Part shown: in pieces, positions 5,034 through 44,641 of the stretch
Layout: every line of letters starts with the position of its first letter
Position numbering within the stretch: position 1 is the first letter of the stretch
Origin: Pelomonas cellulosilytica
Lineage (GTDB): Bacteria > Pseudomonadota > Gammaproteobacteria > Burkholderiales > Burkholderiaceae_C
DNA length: 64,000 nt
Reading direction: 5' to 3'
Assembly: GCF_021353265.1 (NCBI RefSeq)
Contig: NZ_JAJTWU010000001.1
Span: 186,001-250,000 of the forward strand
Position numbers and translations under genes: made by a program
The notes under the pieces: model-generated
What the model saw: the letters and a program-made list of their open reading frames with translations, nothing else
What the model was told of the DNA's origin: nothing
The model's database searches: none

Positions 5034-7934
<2,901 letters not shown>

Positions 7935-9479: not shown

Positions 9480-10088
9480 ATGGCAACTGCGAAGAAAGCT
9501 CCGGCCAAGAAGGCTGCTGCAACCCCGGTGAAGAAGGCTGCCGCCAAGAAGGCTGCTGCGACTCCGGTGAAGAAAGCTGCCGCCAAGAAGGCCGCTGCAA
9601 CCCCGGTGAAGAAGGCTGCCGCCAAGAAGGCAGCCCCGGCCAAGAAGGCCGCGCCCGCGAAGAAGGCCGCTCCGGCCAAGAAGGCCGCTGCGCCCGCGAA
9701 GAAGGCTGCTCCGGCCAAGAAGGCTGCTGCGCCCGCGAAGAAGGCCGCTCCGGCCAAGAAGGCTGCTGCGCCCGCGAAGAAGGCCGCTCCGGCCAAGAAG
9801 GCTGCTGCGCCCGCGAAGAAGGCCGCTCCGGCCAAGAAGGCTGCTGCGCCCGCGAAGAAGGCTGCTGCACCCGCCGCCAAGAAGGCTGCTCCGGCCAAGA
9901 AGGCTGCTGCCAAGCCGGCCGCCAAGCCTGCTGCGAAGCCCGCTGCCAAGAAGGCCGCGGCTCCGAAGAAGGCTGCCGCCAAGCCTGCCCCTGCGGCCAA
10001 GCCTGCCGCTGCTGCGCCAGCTCCCGCGGCCAAGACCGCGCTGAGCCCGCAAGCCGCGTGGCCCTTCCCCACGGGCAACAAGCCCTAA
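9480..10088 (+). CDS. Histone H1-like alanine/lysine-rich DNA-binding protein
   Basis: A 202-residue, very basic protein of almost only A, K and P, like the C-terminal tail of eukaryotic histone H1 and the H1-like nucleoid proteins of Bordetella (BpH1) and relatives. It probably coats and condenses DNA. The start chosen is ATG 9480, 7 bp after AAGGAG; an upstream in-frame ATG at 9462 lacks a ribosome site. Two arrays share a 13-residue period: KKAAATPVKKAAA three times (residues 10-48) and AAAPAKKAAPAKK four times (69-120). The last residues, AAWPFPTGNKP, break the pattern. Such repeats expand and contract by slippage, so length is likely strain-variable. Confidence 0.88.
   Translation: MATAKKAPAKKAAATPVKKAAAKKAAATPVKKAAAKKAAATPVKKAAAKKAAPAKKAAPAKKAAPAKKAAAPAKKAAPAKKAAAPAKKAAPAKKAAAPAKKAAPAKKAAAPAKKAAPAKKAAAPAKKAAAPAAKKAAPAKKAAAKPAAKPAAKPAAKKAAAPKKAAAKPAPAAKPAAAAPAPAAKTALSPQAAWPFPTGNKP
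9684..9839 (+). repeat. 39-bp tandem repeat inside the histone-like gene
   Basis: Four consecutive 39-bp units, each encoding AAAPAKKAAPAKK, differ only at a few synonymous third positions. A related array (9507-9623) with the same 39-bp period encodes KKAAATPVKKAAA three times. Near-identical codon use between units points to recent duplication by replication slippage or recombination. Confidence 0.85.
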
Positions 10089-33748: not shown

Positions 33749-34947
33749 CCTTGTGGCGCGGCGGGCGCCTGGCGACGCTGGCCGGCGAGTCTGGCTGGGG
33801 GCTCGTCGACGACGGTGCGCTGCTGGTTGAAGATGGCTTGCTGCGCTGGGTCGGGCCGGCCGCCGAGCTGCCGCCCGAGGCGCTAGCGGCGCATGAGGTC
33901 ATCGAGCTGGGCGGTGCGCTCGTCACGCCGGGCCTGGTGGACTGCCACACGCACCTCGTCTACGCCGGCAACCGCGCGCATGAGTTCGAGCTGCGGCTGC
34001 AGGGGGCCGGATATGCGGAGATCGCCCGAGCCGGTGGCGGCATTCGCTCGACGGTCGCGGCGACGCGAGCCGCCAGCGAGACGGAGCTACTGGCTGGTGC
34101 AACCCGGCGCGCGCAGGCGCTGATGGGCGAGGGCGTCACGACGCTGGAAGTGAAATCCGGCTACGGGCTGGACGCCGCCACCGAGGCGCGCATGCTCCGC
34201 GTGGCCCGCCGGCTCGGCGAGCTGGGCGTTGACGTGCGCACCACCTACCTCGCGGCCCATGCGCTGCCGCCCGAATTCGACGATGCCGATGCCTACGTCG
34301 ACACGGTCTGCCGGTGGCTGCCGGCGCTGCACGTCGAAGGGCTAGTCGACGCGGTCGACGCCTTCTGCGAGCACATCGCGTTCAGCCCGGCCCAGGTCGC
34401 CCGCGTGTTCGACGCAGCTCGCCGGCTGGGTCTACCCGTCAAGCTGCACGCGGAGCAGTTGAGTGACCAGGGCGGTGCAGCAATGGCGGCGTCCTTTCAG
34501 GCGCTAAGCTGCGACCACCTGGAATACCTCGGCACTGACGGCATCCAGGCGATGGCCCGTGCGGGTACGGTCGCGGTGCTGCTGCCCGGTGCCTTCTACG
34601 CGCTGAGGGAAACCCGCCTGCCGCCCGTCGCTGCGTTGCGCGAGGCCGGCGTGCCGCTGGCGATCGCGACGGACCACAACCCGGGCAGCTCGCCGACGCT
34701 GTCGCCGCTGCTGATGATGAACATGGCTTGCGTGCTGTTCGGTCTGACGCCCGAAGAGGCGCTGCGCGGCATGACGGTCAACGGCGCCCGCGCGCTGGGC
34801 TTGGCCGACCGCGGGCGGCTCGTGGCCGGGCAGCGCGCCGACTTCTGTGTCTGGGATGGCGATCATCCGCGCGAGCTGGCAACATGTTTCGGACAGAACC
34901 CGCTGAAAGAACGGGTCAGGCTTGGGGCATCACAGGGAGAAGCATGA
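33745..34947 (+). CDS. hutI: Imidazolonepropionase
   Basis: A 400-residue amidohydrolase that opens the ring of 4-imidazolone-5-propionate to N-formimino-L-glutamate. Metal-site motifs: [12 protein letters not shown] (HxH), [12 protein letters not shown] and [10 protein letters not shown] with the catalytic Asp; [12 protein letters not shown] is also diagnostic. The frame is open far into hutD, but the GTG at 33745 (GTG ACC TTG TGG) overlapping the hutD stop is the natural start and gives the family's usual length. It overlaps hutG by ATGA downstream. Confidence 0.94.
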
Positions 34948-35744
34948 GCGTTTGTGAGCTTCGGCAGGGCCGCGTGCCACTGCTGATCAGCCTGCCCCAT
35001 GTCGGCACGGCGATCCCACCCGAGGTGGGCCGGCAGTTGGTGCCACGGGCGCTGGCCAGCGAGGACAGCGACTGGCACCTGGAGCAGCTCTACCGCCCCC
35101 TGGCCGAGCAGCTCGGCGCCAGCCTGCTGGTGCCGCGGTATAGCCGCTACGTCATCGACCTGAACCGACCGCCGGACGACCAGCCGCTGTACCCCGGCGC
35201 CTCCGGCGGCACGGGTCTCGTGCCCACGCGCTTCTTCACGAACGAGCCGCTCTACGCCGATGGCGCCGAGCCTGATGCCACGGCCATCACCGCGCGCATC
35301 GACGCCTATTGGCGCCCGTACCACGCCGCATTGGCGGGCGAACTCCAGCGCTTGCGTGTCGAGCACGGCCACGCGCTGCTGTTCGATGGTCACAGCATCC
35401 GCTCGGAGCTGCCGTGGCTGTTCGAGGGCCAGCTGCCGGCGCTCAACCTGGGCACGGCGGACGGCCGCGCCTGCGCGCCGGCGCTGCGCGACCGGCTGAG
35501 CGCCGTGCTGGCCCGCCAGACGGGCTTCGGCCATGTCGTCGACGGTCGCTTCAAGGGCGGCTACATCACCCGGCACTACGGCCATCCGGGGCAGGGCGTG
35601 CATGCTGTGCAGTTGGAGATGTGCCAGCGCTGCTACATGGACGAAGCCGTGACGCCTCGCGACGCCTTCGACGCCACGCGCGCGGCCACGGTCGCGCCGC
35701 TCATTGGCCAACTGCTGCAGGAGATGCTGGCATGGCGGCCTTGA
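34944..35744 (+). CDS. hutG: N-formylglutamate deformylase
   Basis: A 266-residue zinc hydrolase that releases formate from N-formyl-L-glutamate, the last step of the five-step hut route. Motifs include [50 protein letters not shown] and [12 protein letters not shown]. The ATG overlaps the hutI stop (ATGA) and follows GGGAGAAGC. The 3' end overlaps hutF by 13 bp. Its presence with hutF shows that formiminoglutamate is processed by deamination and deformylation and not by a formiminoglutamase. Confidence 0.95.
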
Positions 35745-37096
35745 AGACGCTGCATGCGCCGCTGGCCTGGCTGGGTGGGGGCTGGCAGCGCGACGTGCTG
35801 CTGAGCGTCGATGCCCGCGGCCACTGGGCCGACATTCGCGCCAACCAGCCGCCGCCGCCCGATGCGGAACTGTTGGCCGGCCCGTTGATCCCCAGCCTCG
35901 TCAATGCCCATAGCCATGCGTTCCAGCGTGCCTTCGTCGGCCTGGCCGAGCGGCGCGAGACAGGCCAGGACGACTTCTGGACCTGGCGCGACCGCATGTA
36001 CGCGCTGGCGCTGCGCATCTCGCCCGAGCAACTGCGCGCTGTGGCCGGCCAGCTCTATGCCGAGCTGCTGCGCGGCGGCTACACGCAGGTCTGCGAGTTC
36101 CACTACCTGCACCAGCCGGCGCAGGACAGCGAGCTGGAGGACGAGCTGGACATGGCCTGGGCGCTCGCGGCCGCGGCGGACGATGCGGGCATCGGCCTGA
36201 CGCTGCTGCCCGCCGTCTACACGCGCAGCGGCTTCATGGCCGAAGGGCTCCGGCCCGAGCAGCATCGCTTTTCCGGCAGCGCCGACTGGGCCTGGCATGT
36301 CTGCCAGCGGGTGTTGTCTGCCGGACTGCCGCGCGTGAGCGCCGGGCTAGCGCTGCATTCGCTTCGCGGCGCCTCGCCGGCAGACATCGCGCGGCTGCTC
36401 GAACGCGCCGCGGGCGCGGATCTGCCCATCCACATCCACGTGGCCGAGCAGATTGCCGAGGTCACGGACTGCTTGGCCGCCACTGGCAGGCGGCCGCTGC
36501 AATGGCTGGCCGAATCGGGTCATCTCGACACGCGCTGGCAGCTGGTGCACGCGACGCATGCCGAGCCCGACGAGATCGACGCCGTGGCGCGCAGCGGTGC
36601 GGGGCTGGTGCTGTGCCCCGGCACCGAGGCCAATCTGGGCGACGGGCTCGCCGATCTGCCGCGCTGGCTGGCCGCTGGCGTGCCATTGACGGTGGGCTCG
36701 GACAGCCAGGTCACGCGTGGCTGGGTGGAGGAATTGCGCTGGCTGGAGTACGGCCAGCGTCTGGTGCTGCGCCAGCGCAATGTCGCGGCTCTGCCGGGCG
36801 TGCAGCCGTCCAGCGCGGCGCGGCTCTTCGATGCAGCCGTGCATGGCGGCGCGCGCGCCGCCGGCTTTGCGGCCTGGGGCCTGACGCCCGGCGCGCGGGC
36901 CGACGGGCTGGTGCTCAACCGCGAGGCCGACGGTCTGCGCGGCCTGCCCGATGAGGCCCTGCTGGACGCCGTCGTCTTCGGCAGCAACGGCTCGCCATGG
37001 CAGTCCGTCTGGGTCGCCGGCCGGGCGCGGCCGTGGCGGGCGCCGCGGCGCGTGGGAGACGCCTTCGAGGCGGCGATGAGCGCGCTGTGGTCCTGA
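35732..37096 (+). CDS. hutF: Formimidoylglutamate deiminase
   Basis: A 454-residue amidohydrolase converting N-formimino-L-glutamate to N-formyl-L-glutamate and ammonia. Zinc-site blocks: NAHSHAFQRAFVG (HxH), HIHVAEQIAEV, VHATHAEPDEI and VGSDSQVTRGW. It starts at [11 protein letters not shown] inside the last codons of hutG (13-bp overlap), so the genes are translationally coupled. It completes hutCDIGF. No clear terminator follows; the next gene begins 152 bp downstream. Confidence 0.94.
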   Translation: MAALKTLHAPLAWLGGGWQRDVLLSVDARGHWADIRANQPPPPDAELLAGPLIPSLVNAHSHAFQRAFVGLAERRETGQDDFWTWRDRMYALALRISPEQLRAVAGQLYAELLRGGYTQVCEFHYLHQPAQDSELEDELDMAWALAAAADDAGIGLTLLPAVYTRSGFMAEGLRPEQHRFSGSADWAWHVCQRVLSAGLPRVSAGLALHSLRGASPADIARLLERAAGADLPIHIHVAEQIAEVTDCLAATGRRPLQWLAESGHLDTRWQLVHATHAEPDEIDAVARSGAGLVLCPGTEANLGDGLADLPRWLAAGVPLTVGSDSQVTRGWVEELRWLEYGQRLVLRQRNVAALPGVQPSSAARLFDAAVHGGARAAGFAAWGLTPGARADGLVLNREADGLRGLPDEALLDAVVFGSNGSPWQSVWVAGRARPWRAPRRVGDAFEAAMSALWS

Positions 37097-37248: not shown

Positions 37249-39723
37249 ATGCGACGCTCTTTCTTCACGATCCCTGTATCCAAGGTGCTTTCGCCTCGTC
37301 CGCCGCACAGCGCCAGCGCCCACATCGAAGCCTTTCGCGCTGTCTGGTTGACGCGTTATGAGTCGCCTGGCGCGGCGGCAGCCATGGCCCATCGGCATAT
37401 CGAGTCCGCCGGGGGCGACGAGCGCCTGGTGCTGCGCATGCAGCTGGTGCTGCAGCGGCTGAAGCCGCAGTCCGCCGCGAGCCATGAGCACTACGAGGCC
37501 CTGGCCCAGCGCCTGGAGGAGCTGGGCGACCGGCCGGGCTCCCTGATCGCGACGAGCCTTGCGCTGGGCGTCGCGAACTTCGGTGGCGACGTGGAGGCGG
37601 CCGTGGCGGCGTACGAACGCCTGACCCCGGCCATCCATCACATCGCCGATCCATTGGAGCAGCACGTGGCCATGGCGCCTTCGCTGTTCCTCTACCACGC
37701 TGCCGGCAACGCGGCGGCCTATATGCACCAGGCCTGCCGGATGCTGCAGCTGGCCAACGAAGTCAGCAACGACGGCATGCGGTCTGCGTCGCTCAGCAAC
37801 GTCGGCATCGCGTTCTTCCTGTCGGGTGACGAGTTGCAGGCGCGCCACCATCTCGAGCAGTCGCTGGAGAGCACCGATGTCGGTGGGTGGACGCGCTTCG
37901 GCGCGGTGACCGTCCTCGCCGACCTCTACGCCTCTGCCGGTGAGATGGACAAGGTGCTGCCACTGCTGAAGGCTTGGTCGTTTCCGCGCAACCCCGAGGA
38001 GCTCGACATTTCGGCGATGGCCCATTTCCACGCACTGGGCGCCGAGGTCTGCGCTCGCCTGGGCGAGGAGAGCCGCGCGCGGGACTACCTCGAAGTCCTG
38101 GACGGTGTGCCGCAGGACCGTCTAAGTCACGGCCTGCGCTGCATGGCAGGGCTGTCTCGTGCGCTCCATCACCGCGCCGCCGGACGCCCGCTGGAAGCCC
38201 TCGAGGCACTGGACGGTGCTCTGGCGCTGGTGGAGCGGCTGCCCGGCAGCGACCGTGCGCTGCCCTCGCGGTTCTGGTGGCTGGCGGCCGAGCTGGCCGA
38301 GGTGCAGGGCGAATGGGAGCGTGCCTACCGGTTGCTGCAGCGCGCCCGCGGGCTGGAGCTCGGGAAGAAGCAGCAGATCGCCGCCGTTCGGCGCGTGGCC
38401 GCGCAGTTCCAGACGGACGCGAATGCCCGTGCCGTCGAGGCAGCCCAGCGCGACCCGCTGACGGGACTGGGCAACCGCGAGCGGTTGATTCACGTCGGCG
38501 ACGGCTGGATCTTGCGCAGGCTCACGCCGCTGGTGGCCAAGCTAAATGTGCGGCGGTTTAACGCCATCAATGAGGCGCTGGGGCGCGAGATCGGCGACGC
38601 TGTCCTGCAGGCGGTCGCGGACCGGCTGCGGCAGGCCTGCGCGCGGCTGGAGAACGCACTGGCCGGCCGCGTCTACGCGGACCAGTTCGCGCTGGTCGTT
38701 GCCGGCGAGCAGGCCGACGTCCACCTGCTGCGGCGCTTCGCCCTCGAGCTTTTCTCCACGCCGCTGGAGGTGGCCGGGCAGCAGGTCGACATCAGCGCGG
38801 CCTGGGGCATCGCGCATGGCCCGGTGCACGGAGCGTCCATGCAGCAGCTGATGAGCCATGCGGAGGTCGCGTTGCACGAGGACCGGCGCACACATGCCGG
38901 CTGGACGATCTACGAACCCGGCCTCGTGCGCGCGGACCCGCGCCAACTCTCGCTGATCTCCGAGCTCCGGCGCGCGGCGCAGGAGAACGAGTTCACGTTG
39001 CTGCTGCAGCCCAAGTTCAGCCTGTCCGACAACCGCGTGACCAGCTTCGAGTCGCTGATCCGCTGGCGGCACCCGAGCCGCGGACCGCTCGCCCCGGCCG
39101 CGTTCATCCCATTCGCCGAGAACACGGGCAGCATCCGCGGCGTCACCGAGTGGGTGTTGCGGCGGTCTATGCAGCTGTCCGTGCGGCTGCGTGGGGCGGG
39201 GCTGGTGAGCCGCATCGCCGTCAACGTGTCGGTGCACGACGTGGGCGGCAGCGACCTCTGCCGCCGGCTGCAAGGGCTGCTACTGGCCACCGGCGCGCGG
39301 GCCGAGGACATCCGGCTGGAGCTGACCGAGAGCGCCGTGATGAAGGACCCGGCGACGGTCATCGATCGCATGCGGGAGATCAACGCGCTGGGCTTCGAGT
39401 GGTCCGTCGACGACTTCGGCACCGGCCAGTCGTCGCTGGCCTATCTGCACATGCTGCCGGTCTCCGAGCTGAAGATCGACCGCAGTTTCGTTCGTGGCGC
39501 CGCGACATCGAGCACGTCGCTGACGCTGCTGAAGGCGGCCATCGACCTGGGGCGCAACCTGGGGCTGTCCACCGTGGGCGAGGGCGCCGAGACGGCCGAG
39601 GAATGGTCACTGTTGCGTGATCTGGGCTGCAGCGTCGCGCAAGGTTGGTTCGGCGCCAGCCCCATGCCGGAGCATGAGCTGATCGCCTGGCTGCAACAGC
39701 GCGCGGCCGCCGAAAGGCTCTGA
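37249..39723 (+). CDS. TPR-like / degenerate GGDEF / EAL c-di-GMP phosphodiesterase
   Basis: An 824-residue cytosolic protein. Residues about 20-395 are alpha-helical repeats of TPR style. A GGDEF-like domain follows (about 400-550) but the signature is replaced by VYADQF, so cyclase activity is unlikely; it may bind GTP as a regulator. The EAL domain (about 570-815) has ESLIRWRHP (EAL as ESL), NVSVHD, LELTES, VDDFGTGQSSL, ELKIDRSFV and GEGAET, so the main metal and catalytic residues look present and c-di-GMP hydrolysis is plausible. No ribosome site is obvious before the ATG. It probably tunes motility or biofilm state beside the chemoreceptor gene. Confidence 0.85.
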   Translation: MRRSFFTIPVSKVLSPRPPHSASAHIEAFRAVWLTRYESPGAAAAMAHRHIESAGGDERLVLRMQLVLQRLKPQSAASHEHYEALAQRLEELGDRPGSLIATSLALGVANFGGDVEAAVAAYERLTPAIHHIADPLEQHVAMAPSLFLYHAAGNAAAYMHQACRMLQLANEVSNDGMRSASLSNVGIAFFLSGDELQARHHLEQSLESTDVGGWTRFGAVTVLADLYASAGEMDKVLPLLKAWSFPRNPEELDISAMAHFHALGAEVCARLGEESRARDYLEVLDGVPQDRLSHGLRCMAGLSRALHHRAAGRPLEALEALDGALALVERLPGSDRALPSRFWWLAAELAEVQGEWERAYRLLQRARGLELGKKQQIAAVRRVAAQFQTDANARAVEAAQRDPLTGLGNRERLIHVGDGWILRRLTPLVAKLNVRRFNAINEALGREIGDAVLQAVADRLRQACARLENALAGRVYADQFALVVAGEQADVHLLRRFALELFSTPLEVAGQQVDISAAWGIAHGPVHGASMQQLMSHAEVALHEDRRTHAGWTIYEPGLVRADPRQLSLISELRRAAQENEFTLLLQPKFSLSDNRVTSFESLIRWRHPSRGPLAPAAFIPFAENTGSIRGVTEWVLRRSMQLSVRLRGAGLVSRIAVNVSVHDVGGSDLCRRLQGLLLATGARAEDIRLELTESAVMKDPATVIDRMREINALGFEWSVDDFGTGQSSLAYLHMLPVSELKIDRSFVRGAATSSTSLTLLKAAIDLGRNLGLSTVGEGAETAEEWSLLRDLGCSVAQGWFGASPMPEHELIAWLQQRAAAERL

Positions 39724-39793
39724 CGCCGCCATCGGCTTGGCGTTCGGCTGACAAACCGATAGGCTGTCCCCTCCAGACCAGGGAGGGATGGGA

Positions 39794-41347
39794 ATGAGGC
39801 TCAGCGACTACACGATCCGGGCTCGCCTGTTGGCCCTTGCCGCCTTGGCGGTGGCGGGCATGCTGCTGGTGGGACTGCAGGGCTTGGGCAGCCTGTCCCA
39901 GGCCCGAGCCGATTTTGTCGATTACGTCGACAACGACGTCGAGGCCCTGACGCTGCTGGCCGGCGTGCGGGCGGGCGTCGGCAACCTTCGCCGCTACGAG
40001 AAGGATCTGCTCATAAACCTGGCCGACGCCAAGGCGGTCGAGCGCTATCGCGGCGAGTGGATCGACACCTTCGACAAGGTTTCGACCAGCCTGGTTCGCA
40101 TCGGCCGGCTGGATCTGCCGACCGAGGTGAAGCGCATGCCCGGGGGCCTGCAGCAGGCGCTGCAGGACTATCGCGGCGGCTTCAGCGCCATCCTCGACCG
40201 CCTCGCCAAGGGCGAGTTCCCCGACACGGCGGCGGCCAACAAGGCGATGGAGCCGGTCAAGGGCTCGGTGCGCGCCGTCGACAAGTCGCTGGGCGACATG
40301 ACGGAGAAGATCAGTCAGCGCTCTGCCGAGCAGGTGGCCCGCGTCGACGCGAATGCCCGGGACATCCGGCGCCACCTGACGCTCGTCGTGGTGGCGGCCG
40401 TGCTGCTGCTGGCCGCCTACACGGCCGTCAACATTCGCTCCATCCTGGCGCCGCTGGCGCAGGCGGCGAAGGCGGCGGAACGCATTGCCGGCCATGACCT
40501 CAGCGAGCCGCTGCACCCACAGGGCCGGGATGAGACGGCGCTGCTGATGCGCGGCCTGCAAGGCATGCAGGACGCGCTGGCCGGTGTCGTCGCCGGCGTG
40601 CGCGAGGGGGCAGGCCATGTGGCCGACGCGTCGCGCGAGGTCGCCGTCGGCAGCATGGACCTCAGCCAGCGGACCGAACAGGCCGCCGCCAACCTGGAAG
40701 AAACCGCCTCCGCCATGGAGCAACTGACGGCCAGCGTCACGCACAACGCCGAGTCCGCCGCACGTGCCAGTGACCTGGCTGCTGAAGCCACCGACGTGGC
40801 GCGGCGGGGCGGTGCCGTCGTGGACGAAGTGGTGCGCACGATGTCGGAGATCAGCACGTCCTCGGCACGCATCGCCGACATCATCTCCGTCATCGACGGC
40901 ATCGCCTTCCAGACCAACATCCTGGCCTTGAACGCCGCGGTGGAGGCCGCGCGGGCCGGGGAGCAGGGCCGCGGCTTTGCCGTGGTAGCCGGCGAGGTGC
41001 GCCTGCTGGCCGGGCGCTCGGCCGAGGCGGCCAAGGAGATCAAGACACTCATCTCGCACAGCGGCGAGAGGGTCGACGTGGGCGTCGCGCTCGTGGGCCA
41101 GGCCGGCAAGACGATGCAGCAGGTCATCGAGGCAATTGCCCGCGTGGCCAGCATTGCGTCGGAAATCAGCCATGCCGCCCGCGAGCAGGGCAGCGGCATC
41201 GGCCAGATCGGGCAGGCCATCGCGAACATGGACCAGATGACGCAGCAGAACGCGGCGCTGGTCGAGGAGTCCGCAGCCGCCGCCGCCAGCCTGCAGCAGC
41301 AGGCCGACGCGCTGGCGAGCACGGTGTCCGTGTTCCGTCTCGGTTGA
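39794..41347 (+). CDS. Methyl-accepting chemotaxis protein
   Basis: A 517-residue transducer: a short cytoplasmic tip, TM1 ([20 protein letters not shown]), a periplasmic four-helix-bundle domain (about 30-190), TM2 ([17 protein letters not shown]), HAMP, and the signalling domain with the conserved hairpin tip [20 protein letters not shown] and [14 protein letters not shown]. It ends TVSVFRLG without the NWETF-type CheR tether. Two ATGs six bases apart are possible; the second (39794) has better spacing to GGGAGG. Its ligand is unknown. Its last 45 bp and the following 20 bp are echoed behind the cellulase gene. Confidence 0.94.
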
Positions 41348-41366
41348 GCGCGAAGGCCAGCCGCGG
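41303..41366. repeat. Left copy of a junction repeat flanking the cellulase gene
   Basis: This stretch covers the last codons of the chemoreceptor gene, its stop and about 20 bp beyond. It aligns by eye at about 80% with 43588-43650. The part after the stop (TGAGCGCGAAGGCC) corresponds to the end of the asparaginase gene in the right copy. The left copy is thus intact chemoreceptor end plus relic asparaginase end. Confidence 0.65.
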
Positions 41367-41758
41367 GACGCTGGCTGCGGCCCCGGCACCGGGCGATCGT
41401 GCGCGTGGCCAGCGTGGGCCTTGGCGTCCCGGCTTTTGCGTGTCTGAACGTGACGGGCTGAAGCACCGAGGCGGCCTGTCCTGGTTGCCTGATGAACGGG
41501 CGAGAGGGAGCTCTCCCCATGGTGCCCATGACTCCCCGGGGCGCTATCGGCAGATTGCATCCCTAACTTGCAGTTTGCCGACATGTTGCGAACTGTTGCC
41601 CCTGCATCAATCCAGGGCCAGGACGCGACGCAGACACTCCGCGCCGCGCCAGAGCCGCACGTGACGGCGACGCCGGTATGAGCGGCGGCAGGCACCGCGG
41701 GCGTGCAGATCGGTTCTGCGGCCCGAGCGACAGTCCATCTAGCCAGGAGAGACATTTC
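41367..41758. other. Non-coding spacer upstream of the cellulase gene
   Basis: About 390 bp with no credible gene. A short inverted repeat GGGAG-CT-CTCCC lies near 41508-41519. Around 41568-41610 several TTGC segments recur (CTTGCAGTTTGCC, GTTGCGAACTGTTGCC), which could be regulator sites for the cellulase gene. No promoter with good boxes at both -35 and -10 stands out, and there is no intrinsic terminator for the chemoreceptor gene. Confidence 0.5.
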
Positions 41759-43549
41759 ATGCAGATCATCTCAATGCAGGTCCGCCGTGCGGCGGCAGCC
41801 CTGTTTGGCGGCCTGTTGCTGGCGCATGCCGGCCAGGTCCTTGCCGACGTCAGCCCGCTTTCCGTCAGTGGCAACCGTGTGCTGGCGGGTGGGCAGCCCG
41901 CTAGCTTTGCCGGCAACAGCCTGTTCTGGAGCAACACCGGCTGGGGTGGTGAGAAGTTCTACAACGCCAGCGTCGTCGGCTGGCTCAAGAAGGACTGGGG
42001 CACGAAGGTCATCCGCGTGGCCATGGGCGTGGAAGAGAGTGGCGGCTATCTGCAGGACCCAGCCGGCAACAAAGCGCGGGTCAAGGCCGTCGTCGACGCC
42101 GCCATCGCCAACGATATGTACGTCATCATCGACTGGCACACCCACCACGCGGAGGACTACCGCACCCAGGCGGTGGCCTTCTTCCAGGAGATGGCGCGCA
42201 CCTACGGCAAGAGCAATCACGTCATCTACGAGGTTTACAACGAGCCGCTGGGCATCTCGTGGAGCGGCACGATCAAGCCCTACGCGCAGGCCGTCATCAA
42301 CGCCATCCGCGCGATCGACCCGGACAACCTCATCATCGTCGGCACGCCCAACTGGTCGCAGGACGTGGATGCCGCCTCGCGCGATCCGATCAGCGGCGCC
42401 AACGTGGCCTACACGCTGCACTTCTATGCCGGCAGCCACGGCCAGTGGCTGCGTGACAAGGCGCAGACCGCGCTGAACAACGGCGTCGCGCTGTTCGTGA
42501 CCGAGTGGGGCTCGGTGAACGCCAGCGGCGATGGTGGCGTGAACGAATCCGAGACCTGGGCCTGGGTCGACTTCATGAAGGCCAAGGGCATCAGCAATGC
42601 CAACTGGGCGCTGAACGACAAGGCGGAGGGCGCGTCCGCGCTGGTGGCCGGAGCCAGTGCGCAGGGCGGCTGGTCGGCCGGCCAGTTGACACGCTCGGGC
42701 GCGCTGGCCAGGCAGATCATCGGCGGTTGGCCGGGCGCACCGACGAACTCGGGCTGCACACGCATGGCTGTGCCGGCGCAGCTCCAGGCCGAGGCCTACT
42801 GCAACATGTCCGGCGTGCAGGTGGAGGGCACGACGGATACGGACGGTGGCAGCAATGTCGGCTACATCGACACGGGCGACTGGATGACGTACGACGTCAA
42901 CGTGCCGGCCGCCGGCAGCTATCTCGTCAAGTACCGCGTGGCCAGCCAGTCCGGTGGCGGCGTCATCCAGCTGGAACGTGGCGGCGGCGGTGCCACCTAC
43001 GGCACGATCAACGTGCCTTCCACCGGCGGCTGGCAGAACTGGACGACGGTCTCCCACACGGTCACGCTGGCTGCCGGTCAGCAGACTCTGGCCATCCTGG
43101 CCAAGTCGGGCGGATTCAACATCAACTGGCTGGACATCAGCCGCCCCACCGACCCTGTCGGCAGCGGCATCACCATCCAGGCCGAGAACTTCGACTCGCA
43201 GTCCGGCGTGCAGACTGAGGCCACGACCGACTCCGACGGAGGCCTGAACGTGGGCTACCTGGACGCCGGCGACTGGCTGTCCTACCCCAGCGTCAACCTG
43301 GCCACGGCCGGCGCCTACACGATCGAGTACCGCGTGGCCAGCCTCAACGGTGGCGGCACGCTGCAGCTTGAAGAGGCCGGCGGCAGCGTGGTCTACGGCG
43401 CGCTGAACGTCCCGGCTACGGGAGGCTGGCAGAACTGGGTCACCATCAAGCACACCGTGCAGCTGCCCGCGGGCCAGCGCAAGTTCGGCATTGCGGTGCG
43501 CAACGGCGGCTGGAACCTGAACTGGTTCAGGGTGTCCAAGGCGCCCTGA
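41759..43549 (+). CDS. Secreted GH5 cellulase with two CBM6 domains
   Basis: A 596-residue exported endo-beta-1,4-glucanase. Signal peptide about 1-29 (cleavage near VLA-D); GH5 domain about 30-340 with the acid/base E162 in YEVYNEPLG, nucleophile E249 in FVTEWGSV, and IIDWHTHHAEDYR. Two tandem CBM6 modules follow (about 355-470 and 485-596), each with QAE..., DGG-NVGY-D-GDW and INW or LNW blocks, suited to binding cellulose or xylan-type chains. AGGAG lies about 10 bp before the ATG, which excludes the longer frame. The gene sits alone between a chemoreceptor and an asparaginase gene, flanked by duplicated junction sequence that suggests insertion. Confidence 0.93.
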   Translation: MQIISMQVRRAAAALFGGLLLAHAGQVLADVSPLSVSGNRVLAGGQPASFAGNSLFWSNTGWGGEKFYNASVVGWLKKDWGTKVIRVAMGVEESGGYLQDPAGNKARVKAVVDAAIANDMYVIIDWHTHHAEDYRTQAVAFFQEMARTYGKSNHVIYEVYNEPLGISWSGTIKPYAQAVINAIRAIDPDNLIIVGTPNWSQDVDAASRDPISGANVAYTLHFYAGSHGQWLRDKAQTALNNGVALFVTEWGSVNASGDGGVNESETWAWVDFMKAKGISNANWALNDKAEGASALVAGASAQGGWSAGQLTRSGALARQIIGGWPGAPTNSGCTRMAVPAQLQAEAYCNMSGVQVEGTTDTDGGSNVGYIDTGDWMTYDVNVPAAGSYLVKYRVASQSGGGVIQLERGGGGATYGTINVPSTGGWQNWTTVSHTVTLAAGQQTLAILAKSGGFNINWLDISRPTDPVGSGITIQAENFDSQSGVQTEATTDSDGGLNVGYLDAGDWLSYPSVNLATAGAYTIEYRVASLNGGGTLQLEEAGGSVVYGALNVPATGGWQNWVTIKHTVQLPAGQRKFGIAVRNGGWNLNWFRVSKAP

Positions 43550-43587
43550 TGCGGTCGCCGACCGTCAGTCCACGTGCACCGGGTTGC

Positions 43588-43650
43588 GCCCGATGCGCTG
43601 GCGCGACCGTGTCGGTGTTCCACTTCAGCTGAGCGCGAAGGCCGGCCGCA
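43588..43650. repeat. Right copy of the junction repeat flanking the cellulase gene
   Basis: About 80% identical by hand alignment to 41303-41366. It contains a broken chemoreceptor tail (GATGCGCTGGCG, a frame-shifting indel, then codons for TVSVFHFS and a stop) joined to the intact 3' end of the asparaginase gene on the minus strand. There is no other chemoreceptor sequence in front of it, so the tail is a relic. Confidence 0.65.
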
Positions 43651-44641
43651 GCGCGCCTACGGTGAGGCCGCGCCGGTTTTTCAGCTCGAGGTGGCTGTAG
43701 TCGCGCAGCACTTCGTGGTCCGTGCGCAGCAGCGCCTGGGCCACGGCGGCCATGGCCGCTTCGGCGGCACGCGCGGCACCGTCGTCGATCTTCAGCGCCA
43801 CGCCCAGGCCCAGCTCTGGCAGTGCCGCGCAGAACACGCCTTCGGCTCCGATCTTGCAGTACAGCCGCTCACCGAAGACCGCCATGACGCGCGAGTCGAA
43901 CCGGTCGGTGCCGGCCACCATGAATGGCTCTGCAGCCACGGCCTGGCGCAGCCGGCGCGCCGCGCGTGCGTGCCCCTCGGGCAGGCCATGGCCGGTGCCG
44001 GCGCGGGCAAAAGCCCGGGCCAGCGCCCGCAGCGGGAGGGCGAAGGTCGGGATGGAGCAGCCATCGGTGCCGCGCGGTGCCTGCTCGACGTCCTGGCCGG
44101 TAGCTGCGGACAGCGCGGCGGATACCTCGCGCATGGCCGGGTGCTCGGCGTCGACGTAGCCGTGGGCGAACGTCGCCGGCTCGACGCCAAGGCGCTGCGC
44201 CATCAGGCAGGCCACGCACAGGAAGCCGCTGTGCTTGCCCGAGCAGTTGTTGTGCAGCGACGAGGCCAGTTCGCCGCGCGCCGCCATCGCGCGCAGCACG
44301 GGCTCGCGGCTGGGCCATTGCGGGCCGCATTCGAGAGCGTCGACACCAAGCCCCAGCTTGCCGAGCACGCCGGCGGCGGTTGCCACATGCTCGGGCTCGC
44401 CGTTGTGCGACGCGCACGCCAGCGCCAGCTCGGCATCGGTCAGGTGGACCGCGTTGGCGGCGCCGGTCGCCACCAGCGGGAGCGCCTGCAGCAGCTTGAC
44501 GGCGGAGCGTGGGAAGACGGGGCGGTCGATGTCGCCAAGCGCGGTGTGCACGGCGCCGCCGGTGTCGACGATGGCCAGCGCGCCGGTGTGGTGCGACTCC
44601 ACAGTGGCGCCGCGCAGGACTTCGATGAGGACGGGGTTCAT
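43625..44641 (-). CDS. Rhizobium etli-type L-asparaginase (Asparaginase_II family)
   Basis: A 338-residue cytosolic protein of the thermolabile/R. etli-type asparaginase family, not related to E. coli AnsA/AnsB. Blocks seen: EVLRGATVESHHTGALAIVD, FPRSAVKLLQALPL (SxxK), CASHNGEPEH, NNCSGKHSGFLCVA (second SxK) and GTDGCSIPTFALPL. It would hydrolyse L-asparagine to aspartate. The start MNPVLIEVLRG is chosen; the longer frame runs into the divergent promoter region. It converges on the cellulase gene, with stops 76 bp apart. Confidence 0.87.
   Translation of the reverse strand: MNPVLIEVLRGATVESHHTGALAIVDTGGAVHTALGDIDRPVFPRSAVKLLQALPLVATGAANAVHLTDAELALACASHNGEPEHVATAAGVLGKLGLGVDALECGPQWPSREPVLRAMAARGELASSLHNNCSGKHSGFLCVACLMAQRLGVEPATFAHGYVDAEHPAMREVSAALSAATGQDVEQAPRGTDGCSIPTFALPLRALARAFARAGTGHGLPEGHARAARRLRQAVAAEPFMVAGTDRFDSRVMAVFGERLYCKIGAEGVFCAALPELGLGVALKIDDGAARAAEAAMAAVAQALLRTDHEVLRDYSHLELKNRRGLTVGALRPAFALS

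Follow-up and report, generated by a model that had tools for sequence, protein, structure and literature searches.

How did a cellulase gene come to stand between a chemoreceptor gene and an asparaginase gene whose 3' ends overlap in some related genomes? The question is raised by a 64-kb stretch of Pelomonas cellulosilytica (contig NZ_JAJTWU010000001.1, positions 186,001 to 250,000; the window, meaning the whole stretch analyzed), which belongs to a genome of 6.35 Mb in 29 contigs (G000). A gene for a methyl-accepting chemotaxis protein (MCP) and a gene of the L-asparaginase II family converge there around a 2.2-kb segment that carries a single glycoside hydrolase family 5 (GH5) cellulase gene and is bounded by a direct repeat. 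A sequence-only reading of this DNA had proposed that the segment entered a junction of the two genes that had already been duplicated. We found support for the insertion, and the account that we regard as probable is that an overlapping junction took up the cellulase segment, with the overlap duplicated and both genes spared.

The flanking repeat is far beyond chance. Positions 41304-41364 align with 43590-43649 over 61 columns with 82% identity and one gap, which confirms the resemblance of about 80% first noticed at 41303-41366 and 43588-43650 and places those limits within about two bases. The local alignment scores 65, whereas 2,000 dinucleotide shuffles gave a mean of 20.6 (SD 3.2, maximum 35) and none reached that score. 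BLASTn of positions 41303-43660 against six loci assigns the repeat an E-value of 1.4e-9. In a plus-strand self-BLAST of the window it obtains 58.1 bits (E = 2.5e-8) and is outranked solely by a repeat array at about 9489-10050 and by the duplication of the CBM6 domain within the cellulase, while the next unrelated match has 39.2 bits. Had the repeat been a common dispersed sequence, the insertion would be in doubt. The MCP tail alone is indeed a dispersed family sequence, with 38 genome matches to a 185-nt query (the window's two included, counted among the best 40 of 415 candidates), and chemoreceptor paralogues are abundant in the host genome (40 matches at E 1e-40), but the full repeat is not commonly dispersed in the window. 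Within the window, the stretch that follows the MCP stop codon, GCGCGAAGGCCRGCCGC, is matched exactly at the two junction copies only (at five places if two mismatches are permitted), and it has no exact match on the oriented strand of the 20 relative regions introduced below. Two further patterns, GCGCGAAGGCC[AG]GCCGC and AC[CG]GTGTC[CG]GTGTTCC, each occur in both copies (twice in the window locus) and are absent from the same 20 regions (exact, oriented strand). Because both copies share patterns that the relatives do not have, the duplication dates to the lineage of this genome or to a close one.

The two copies have decayed reciprocally, and reading of the frames bears out the pattern of intact and broken ends that had been described from the letters. 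In the left copy the chemoreceptor tail is intact, while in the asparaginase frame RLAFALN is followed by R, not by a stop, and the frame continues; at the position of the stop codon, the plus strand has TCG in the left copy against TCA in the right. In the right copy the asparaginase end (RPAFALS-stop) is intact and the chemoreceptor tail is one base short, ending in TVSVFHFS-stop. Sixteen of the 20 relatives have LRPA at the asparaginase end, so the change from proline to leucine represents a loss in the unused half of the left copy. Similarly, the 17 relatives aligned to the end of the chemoreceptor have tails with VFRL or VFKL, and the H-F of the right copy is therefore a loss in the half that is unused there. 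The part of the right copy beyond the MCP stop is asparaginase sequence, and the corresponding asparaginase-like stretch on the left comprises 17 bases with one difference from it; the putative left relic is recognized through the right copy.

Relatives provide the state without the insert. Of 19 same-genus relatives searched, 18 have the asparaginase gene, as do 10 genomes outside the genus, and the regions compared come from 17 of these 18 and from three of these 10 (20 relative regions). In the eighteenth same-genus genome (G011), the 7-kb contig lacks a receptor, and no receptor adjoins the asparaginase gene in the 1.5-kb flanks of the remaining outside-genus genomes. Four of the 17 same-genus regions (G001, G003, G004, and G006) and G054, alone among the 10 genomes from outside, have a single convergent junction with a gene overlap of 14 bp. 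None of the 20 regions (0/17 within the genus) has the cellulase gene in the space between the two genes, and two regions have weak matches to its CBM6 part, located beyond the asparaginase gene. Relatives lacking any convergent junction had been named as grounds for giving up the insertion; the cellulase-free relatives show a single junction instead, which supports it.

Unforeseen by the sequence-only reading were the overlap of the genes in the single-junction state and the presence of other DNA between them in 11 of the 17 same-genus regions, with a spacing of 0.4 to 7.2 kb, which makes this a variable spot; the last two of the 17 contain no such receptor within the compared stretch. The intervening DNA includes a block that is similar, by DNA similarity, in six same-genus genomes (L120, L122, L124, L127, L129, and L133), with an AcrB-family efflux gene by Pfam in L133, the one checked. 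A small gene (2TM by Pfam in L130) is common to three regions, two of which also carry the six-genome block; NfeD and SPFH genes (Pfam) occupy one region, and other DNA the remaining three. Among 89 loci of distant genomes (L009-L088, the best 80 of 585, plus L109-L117; many are short at their ends), only L110 of G054 has a receptor end adjoining the asparaginase gene. Trees, in which some receptor rows are partial, are little resolved within the genus, and single-junction genomes occur in both receptor clades, and one such genome lies outside the genus. These two separate chemoreceptor clades at the same position (L118, L122, L128, and L132 versus the rest, again with some partial rows) suggest that the receptor gene may have been replaced at this locus.

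The relative regions were also inspected for relics. An asparaginase-like stretch just after the MCP stop in L131 of G016 (7158-7197) scored 35, with one of 2,000 simple shuffles as high, and was rejected as unsupported against the asparaginase gene of that region and at the protein level. An MCP-like match at the protein level in L133 (0/200 shuffles, among 16 regions) has an unconvincing alignment and was taken as chance. This protein-level test is low-powered, since 46 and 12 of 200 shuffles scored as high as the window's own short relics. A self-comparison of 53 loci (717 kb) yielded 14 direct-repeat alignments shorter than 200 columns with copies separated by over 300 bp, taken as a bulk count.

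The features of the locus are collected in Table 1.

Table 1. Features of the chemoreceptor-asparaginase locus, with positions in the window and the basis of each call.
Feature	Position	Strand	Basis
MCP gene (4HB-HAMP-MCPsignal), tail TVSVFRLG-stop	39788-41347	+	Pfam, frame read
Left copy of duplicated junction, 61 bp	41304-41364		Local alignment and shuffles, BLASTn, self-BLAST
Asparaginase-end relic within left copy, RLAFALN, TCG for stop	41340-41364	-	Frame reading, exact post-stop match
Inserted segment, 2,225 bp, without recognized mobility gene	41365-43589		Limits are the repeat edges
15-nt exact match GTTGCGAACTGTTGC to upstream sequence of the G283 cellulase	41585-41599	+	1/300 shuffles as high
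GH5 cellulase gene, two CBM6 domains, 596 aa	41759-43549	+	Pfam, PDB endoglucanase relatives, start identical in G019 homologue
Right copy of duplicated junction, 60 bp	43590-43649		Local alignment and shuffles, BLASTn, self-BLAST
MCP-tail relic within right copy, 1-base deletion then TVSVFHFS-stop	43590-43632	+	Alignment, frame reading
L-asparaginase II family gene, end RPAFALS-stop	43625-44641	-	Pfam PF06089, homology; start codon picked by eye

Directly upstream of the chemoreceptor gene, a TPR-GGDEF-EAL gene is located at 37249-39720. It has no tblastn match in the 20 relative regions, some of which end short of the upstream side of the receptor, and may be a second lineage-specific gene adjoining the same receptor. 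Elsewhere in the window, a diverged repeat array at 9489-10050 represents its strongest self-similarity.

The enzyme encoded by the inserted gene showed no unusual features. Its GH5 domain (PF00150, positions 3-271 of 272, E = 4.7e-67) is present over its whole length and is accompanied by two CBM6 domains (Pfam). The protein contains both NEP and TEWG, which we take to be the catalytic glutamate motifs of GH5. Solved relatives are the GH5 endoglucanases 8bqa, 4m1r, and 1egz and the CBM6 domain of cellulase B, 1uxz. The enzyme has a full GH5 domain and two CBM6 domains in common with GH5 endoglucanases with CBM6; it is a putative cellulase and probably secreted, as judged by eye; compared with known GH5-CBM6 enzymes, its genomic position alone is notable. 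A dN of 0.128 and a dS of 0.50 against the G019 homologue give a dN/dS as expected for a gene that appears to be under purifying selection.

The cellulase is patchily distributed and its location differs among carriers. At E 1e-60 it occurs in three of 20 genus genomes (G000, G019, and G005, the latter two with contamination ratings of 6% and 4%), and at E 1e-80 in five of a sample of 299 family genomes, G000 included. In G019 and G005 it is located elsewhere, the other examined carriers do not have it at this junction, and essentially only the gene (41749-43549) is homologous to the other cellulase loci at the DNA level. In G005 the cellulase is found as four pieces (L164-L167), one pair covering the 5' part and another the 3' part. 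Each runs into a contig end, a sign that the assembly probably broke at two or more similar copies; the start of L164 presumably belongs to a nifH gene, recognized by eye. At the protein level, the cellulase is 84.7% identical to that of G283, a member of another genus, 80.7% to that of G019, and 82% to that of G005, while HutI is 73% identical in G283 and 80-83% in seven same-genus genomes. Synonymous distances give a less clear picture: to G019 and G283 they are 0.50 and 0.82 for the cellulase and 0.72 and 1.06 for HutI. The gene was likely acquired by transfer. The suggested check of codon use gave no sign of a foreign origin: GC content is 66.9% versus 69.8% in the MCP gene, GC3 is 0.90 in both, and the codon distance of 0.21 is host-like beside 0.15-0.68 for nine neighboring frames, two of which (34810-35741 and 35800-37093, with the highest or near-highest distances) may be misframed. 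No occurrence of the cellulase in viral contigs was confirmed, and the best plasmid match stands at 64.9%. The 15-nt match upstream of the gene (Table 1), one of seven upstream comparisons, is a possible regulatory site common to the G000 and G283 cellulases.

The insert carries no recognized machinery for its own movement. As the sequence-only reading had stated, no transposase or inverted repeats are visible: Pfam (E 0.01) gives no match for the two small open reading frames (ORFs) that lie within the left part of the insert or run across it, HTH_Tnp_1 (the sole transposase family searched genome-wide) has no match on the window's contig, and positions 41201-41700 score 25 against the reverse complement of 43550-44049, compared with a shuffle mean of 23.9 and a maximum of 35. 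Phage_integrase (PF00589), the recombinase family searched (serine recombinases were not), has no match in the window; its one match on the contig, a weak one, is at a distance of about 687 kb. At the left edge of the insert, folding is no better than in shuffles. The 384 bp to the left of the cellulase gene give, besides themselves, only short matches (best E 4.1e-4), and the four of these that were inspected are composition-like.

Other carriers are similar in this respect. No Phage_integrase match was found on the cellulase contigs of G019, G005, G346, and G185 (those of G019 and G005 are short), and in G283 and G162 the nearest match is at least 170 kb from the cellulase. Eight ORFs near the G019 and G005 cellulases gave four Pfam matches (TetR, beta-lactamase-like, DUF1428, and ABC transporter) and no mobility gene. 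Self-comparison of four further carriers revealed no repeat at the cellulase edges. Some direct repeats occur elsewhere in the compared loci. In L184 (11745-11795/13401-13451) and L185 (10962-11015/12614-12666), from two genomes of one genus, direct repeats of 51-54 bp with 82-85% identity and about 1.65 kb apart surround a LysR-type-like gene (by eye) and may be duplicated promoter regions. L185 also has a 41-bp direct repeat (3619-3659/10752-10792, 85%) on either side of its cellulase at 2-3 kb, inside other genes, which is probably unrelated.

The account that we favor starts from an ancestor in which the chemoreceptor and asparaginase genes were convergent, with overlapping 3' ends; that this lineage once had such a single junction is suggested mainly by the presence of both gene ends in each copy. 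A 2.2-kb piece of DNA with one cellulase gene and no recognized integrase or transposase would have been captured at the overlap, leaving about 61 bp across it on both sides of the insert. The chemoreceptor would then have used the left copy and the asparaginase the right, each with a complete 3' end, and the unused halves would have decayed. Most likely, the overlap was duplicated in the same event that brought in the segment, such as the uptake of a fragment where a break was staggered or over-copied. The product would have been kept because, where genes overlap, insertion with no such duplication would alter one or both protein ends. A single event is favored because one rare accident suffices and because a product in which the overlap is duplicated leaves both ends complete.

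The order proposed originally, a junction tandemly duplicated first (over about 61 bp, or over a larger stretch later trimmed) and entered by the cellulase segment afterwards, leads to the same final anatomy, and the difference between the copies at about 18% of columns would give time for two steps. It requires two independent rare events at one place, though, and none of the five single-junction and 12 gapped genomes has a duplicated junction without an insert, so that we consider this order rather unlikely. The data fit a prior duplication and a duplication made by the insertion equally well and do not fix the route of insertion; of the original proposal, the insertion is supported. A single crossover of the Campbell type, by which a circle with the cellulase and a homologous junction stretch would leave that stretch repeated on both sides, likewise predicts a direct repeat, possibly diverged from the start. 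The donor circle would already have had to hold the junction of this lineage, whose shared states occur in none of the 20 relative regions, and 61 bp at 82% identity is a poor substrate for RecA exchange; we judge this route improbable.

The length of the repeat, its position at gene ends, and the restoration of these ends would all fit the remnant of an integrase-borne island with att sites in the overlapping gene ends, from which the integrase was lost and the cargo left. Against such a remnant stand the absence of Phage_integrase from the window and, in six other carriers, from the sampled contig or the nearest 170 kb, the other DNA found at the spot without flanking repeats, and the location of the other carriers' cellulases away from this junction, which together make it very unlikely. 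The many chemoreceptor paralogues of the genome would finally permit a reading without any insertion, in which the right-hand tail would be the remnant of a second chemoreceptor once located between the cellulase and the asparaginase. We give this hardly any credence: it leaves the 17 asparaginase-like bases after the left chemoreceptor stop unexplained, and no compared region has two receptors here, save G010, where the second, a distant one, lies beyond the asparaginase gene.

Several observations weigh against capture at an overlapping junction as set out above. The single junction is a minority state (4/17 in the genus, 1/10 outside), no relative has the same insertion and hence there is no intermediate, and the left asparaginase relic scores only 16-25 in direct comparison with the corresponding gene ends in the five single-junction genomes. 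Around the cellulases of G019 and G005 (one and two copies, five left-right pairings), no direct flanking repeat exceeds shuffles. The 12 other MCP-asparaginase gaps (11 in the genus, one outside) have no comparable repeat between their ends (in the best two, 19 and 30 of 500 shuffles score as high), which indicates that duplication is not a regular feature of the spot; the duplicated-junction pattern looks isolated on present evidence. Finally, arrival of the cellulase from outside the genus is not proved. Its synonymous distance to G019 (0.50) is similar to those of the asparaginase (0.58), HutI (0.72), and MCP (0.75) genes, and an old presence with losses and relocation is therefore possible.

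For many single-gene gains in bacteria, no readable trace of entry is left. At this locus both breakpoints are legible, since the target was a pair of gene ends that overlap and decay has affected the unused side of each copy. The locus illustrates the entry of a gene into a tight convergent junction with both neighbors unharmed, and its signature can be searched for across genomes. A wider idea, which we hold to be doubtful, is that overlapping convergent ends form a class of landing site that tolerates insertion only with the overlap duplicated. If so, long gene-end duplications would be a recognizable transposase-free footprint of single-gene capture in bacteria, and this locus would be its first clean example as far as titles and abstract beginnings in the literature show; in these, duplication of overlapping convergent ends by an insertion is not named.

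The arrangement shares features with three known systems. Transposition duplicates its target site, typically over a few to a dozen or so base pairs; the target is directly repeated on both sides here too, but over about 61 bp, with no inverted repeat between the flanks and no transposase recognized in the insert. Integrative islands typically lie between direct repeats at gene 3' ends (attL/attR) that restore the target gene. Insertion at gene ends, repeats of tens of bases, and complete target ends are common to both, whereas at this locus no integrase was found, both convergent genes are restored, and the cargo is a single gene. In Escherichia coli, acquisition hotspots between fixed core genes have been described, many of them without integrases (PMC2617782). 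The absence of an integrase in or beside the cargo holds for the cellulase insert, the one insert examined for it (PF00589, window). As in these hotspots, the same two neighbors enclose different DNA in different genomes; at this locus the neighbors overlap when single, and one insert has a copy of the overlap at each of its edges. Placed among these systems, the locus is a well-explained insertion fossil of moderate interest rather than a new kind of element or system.

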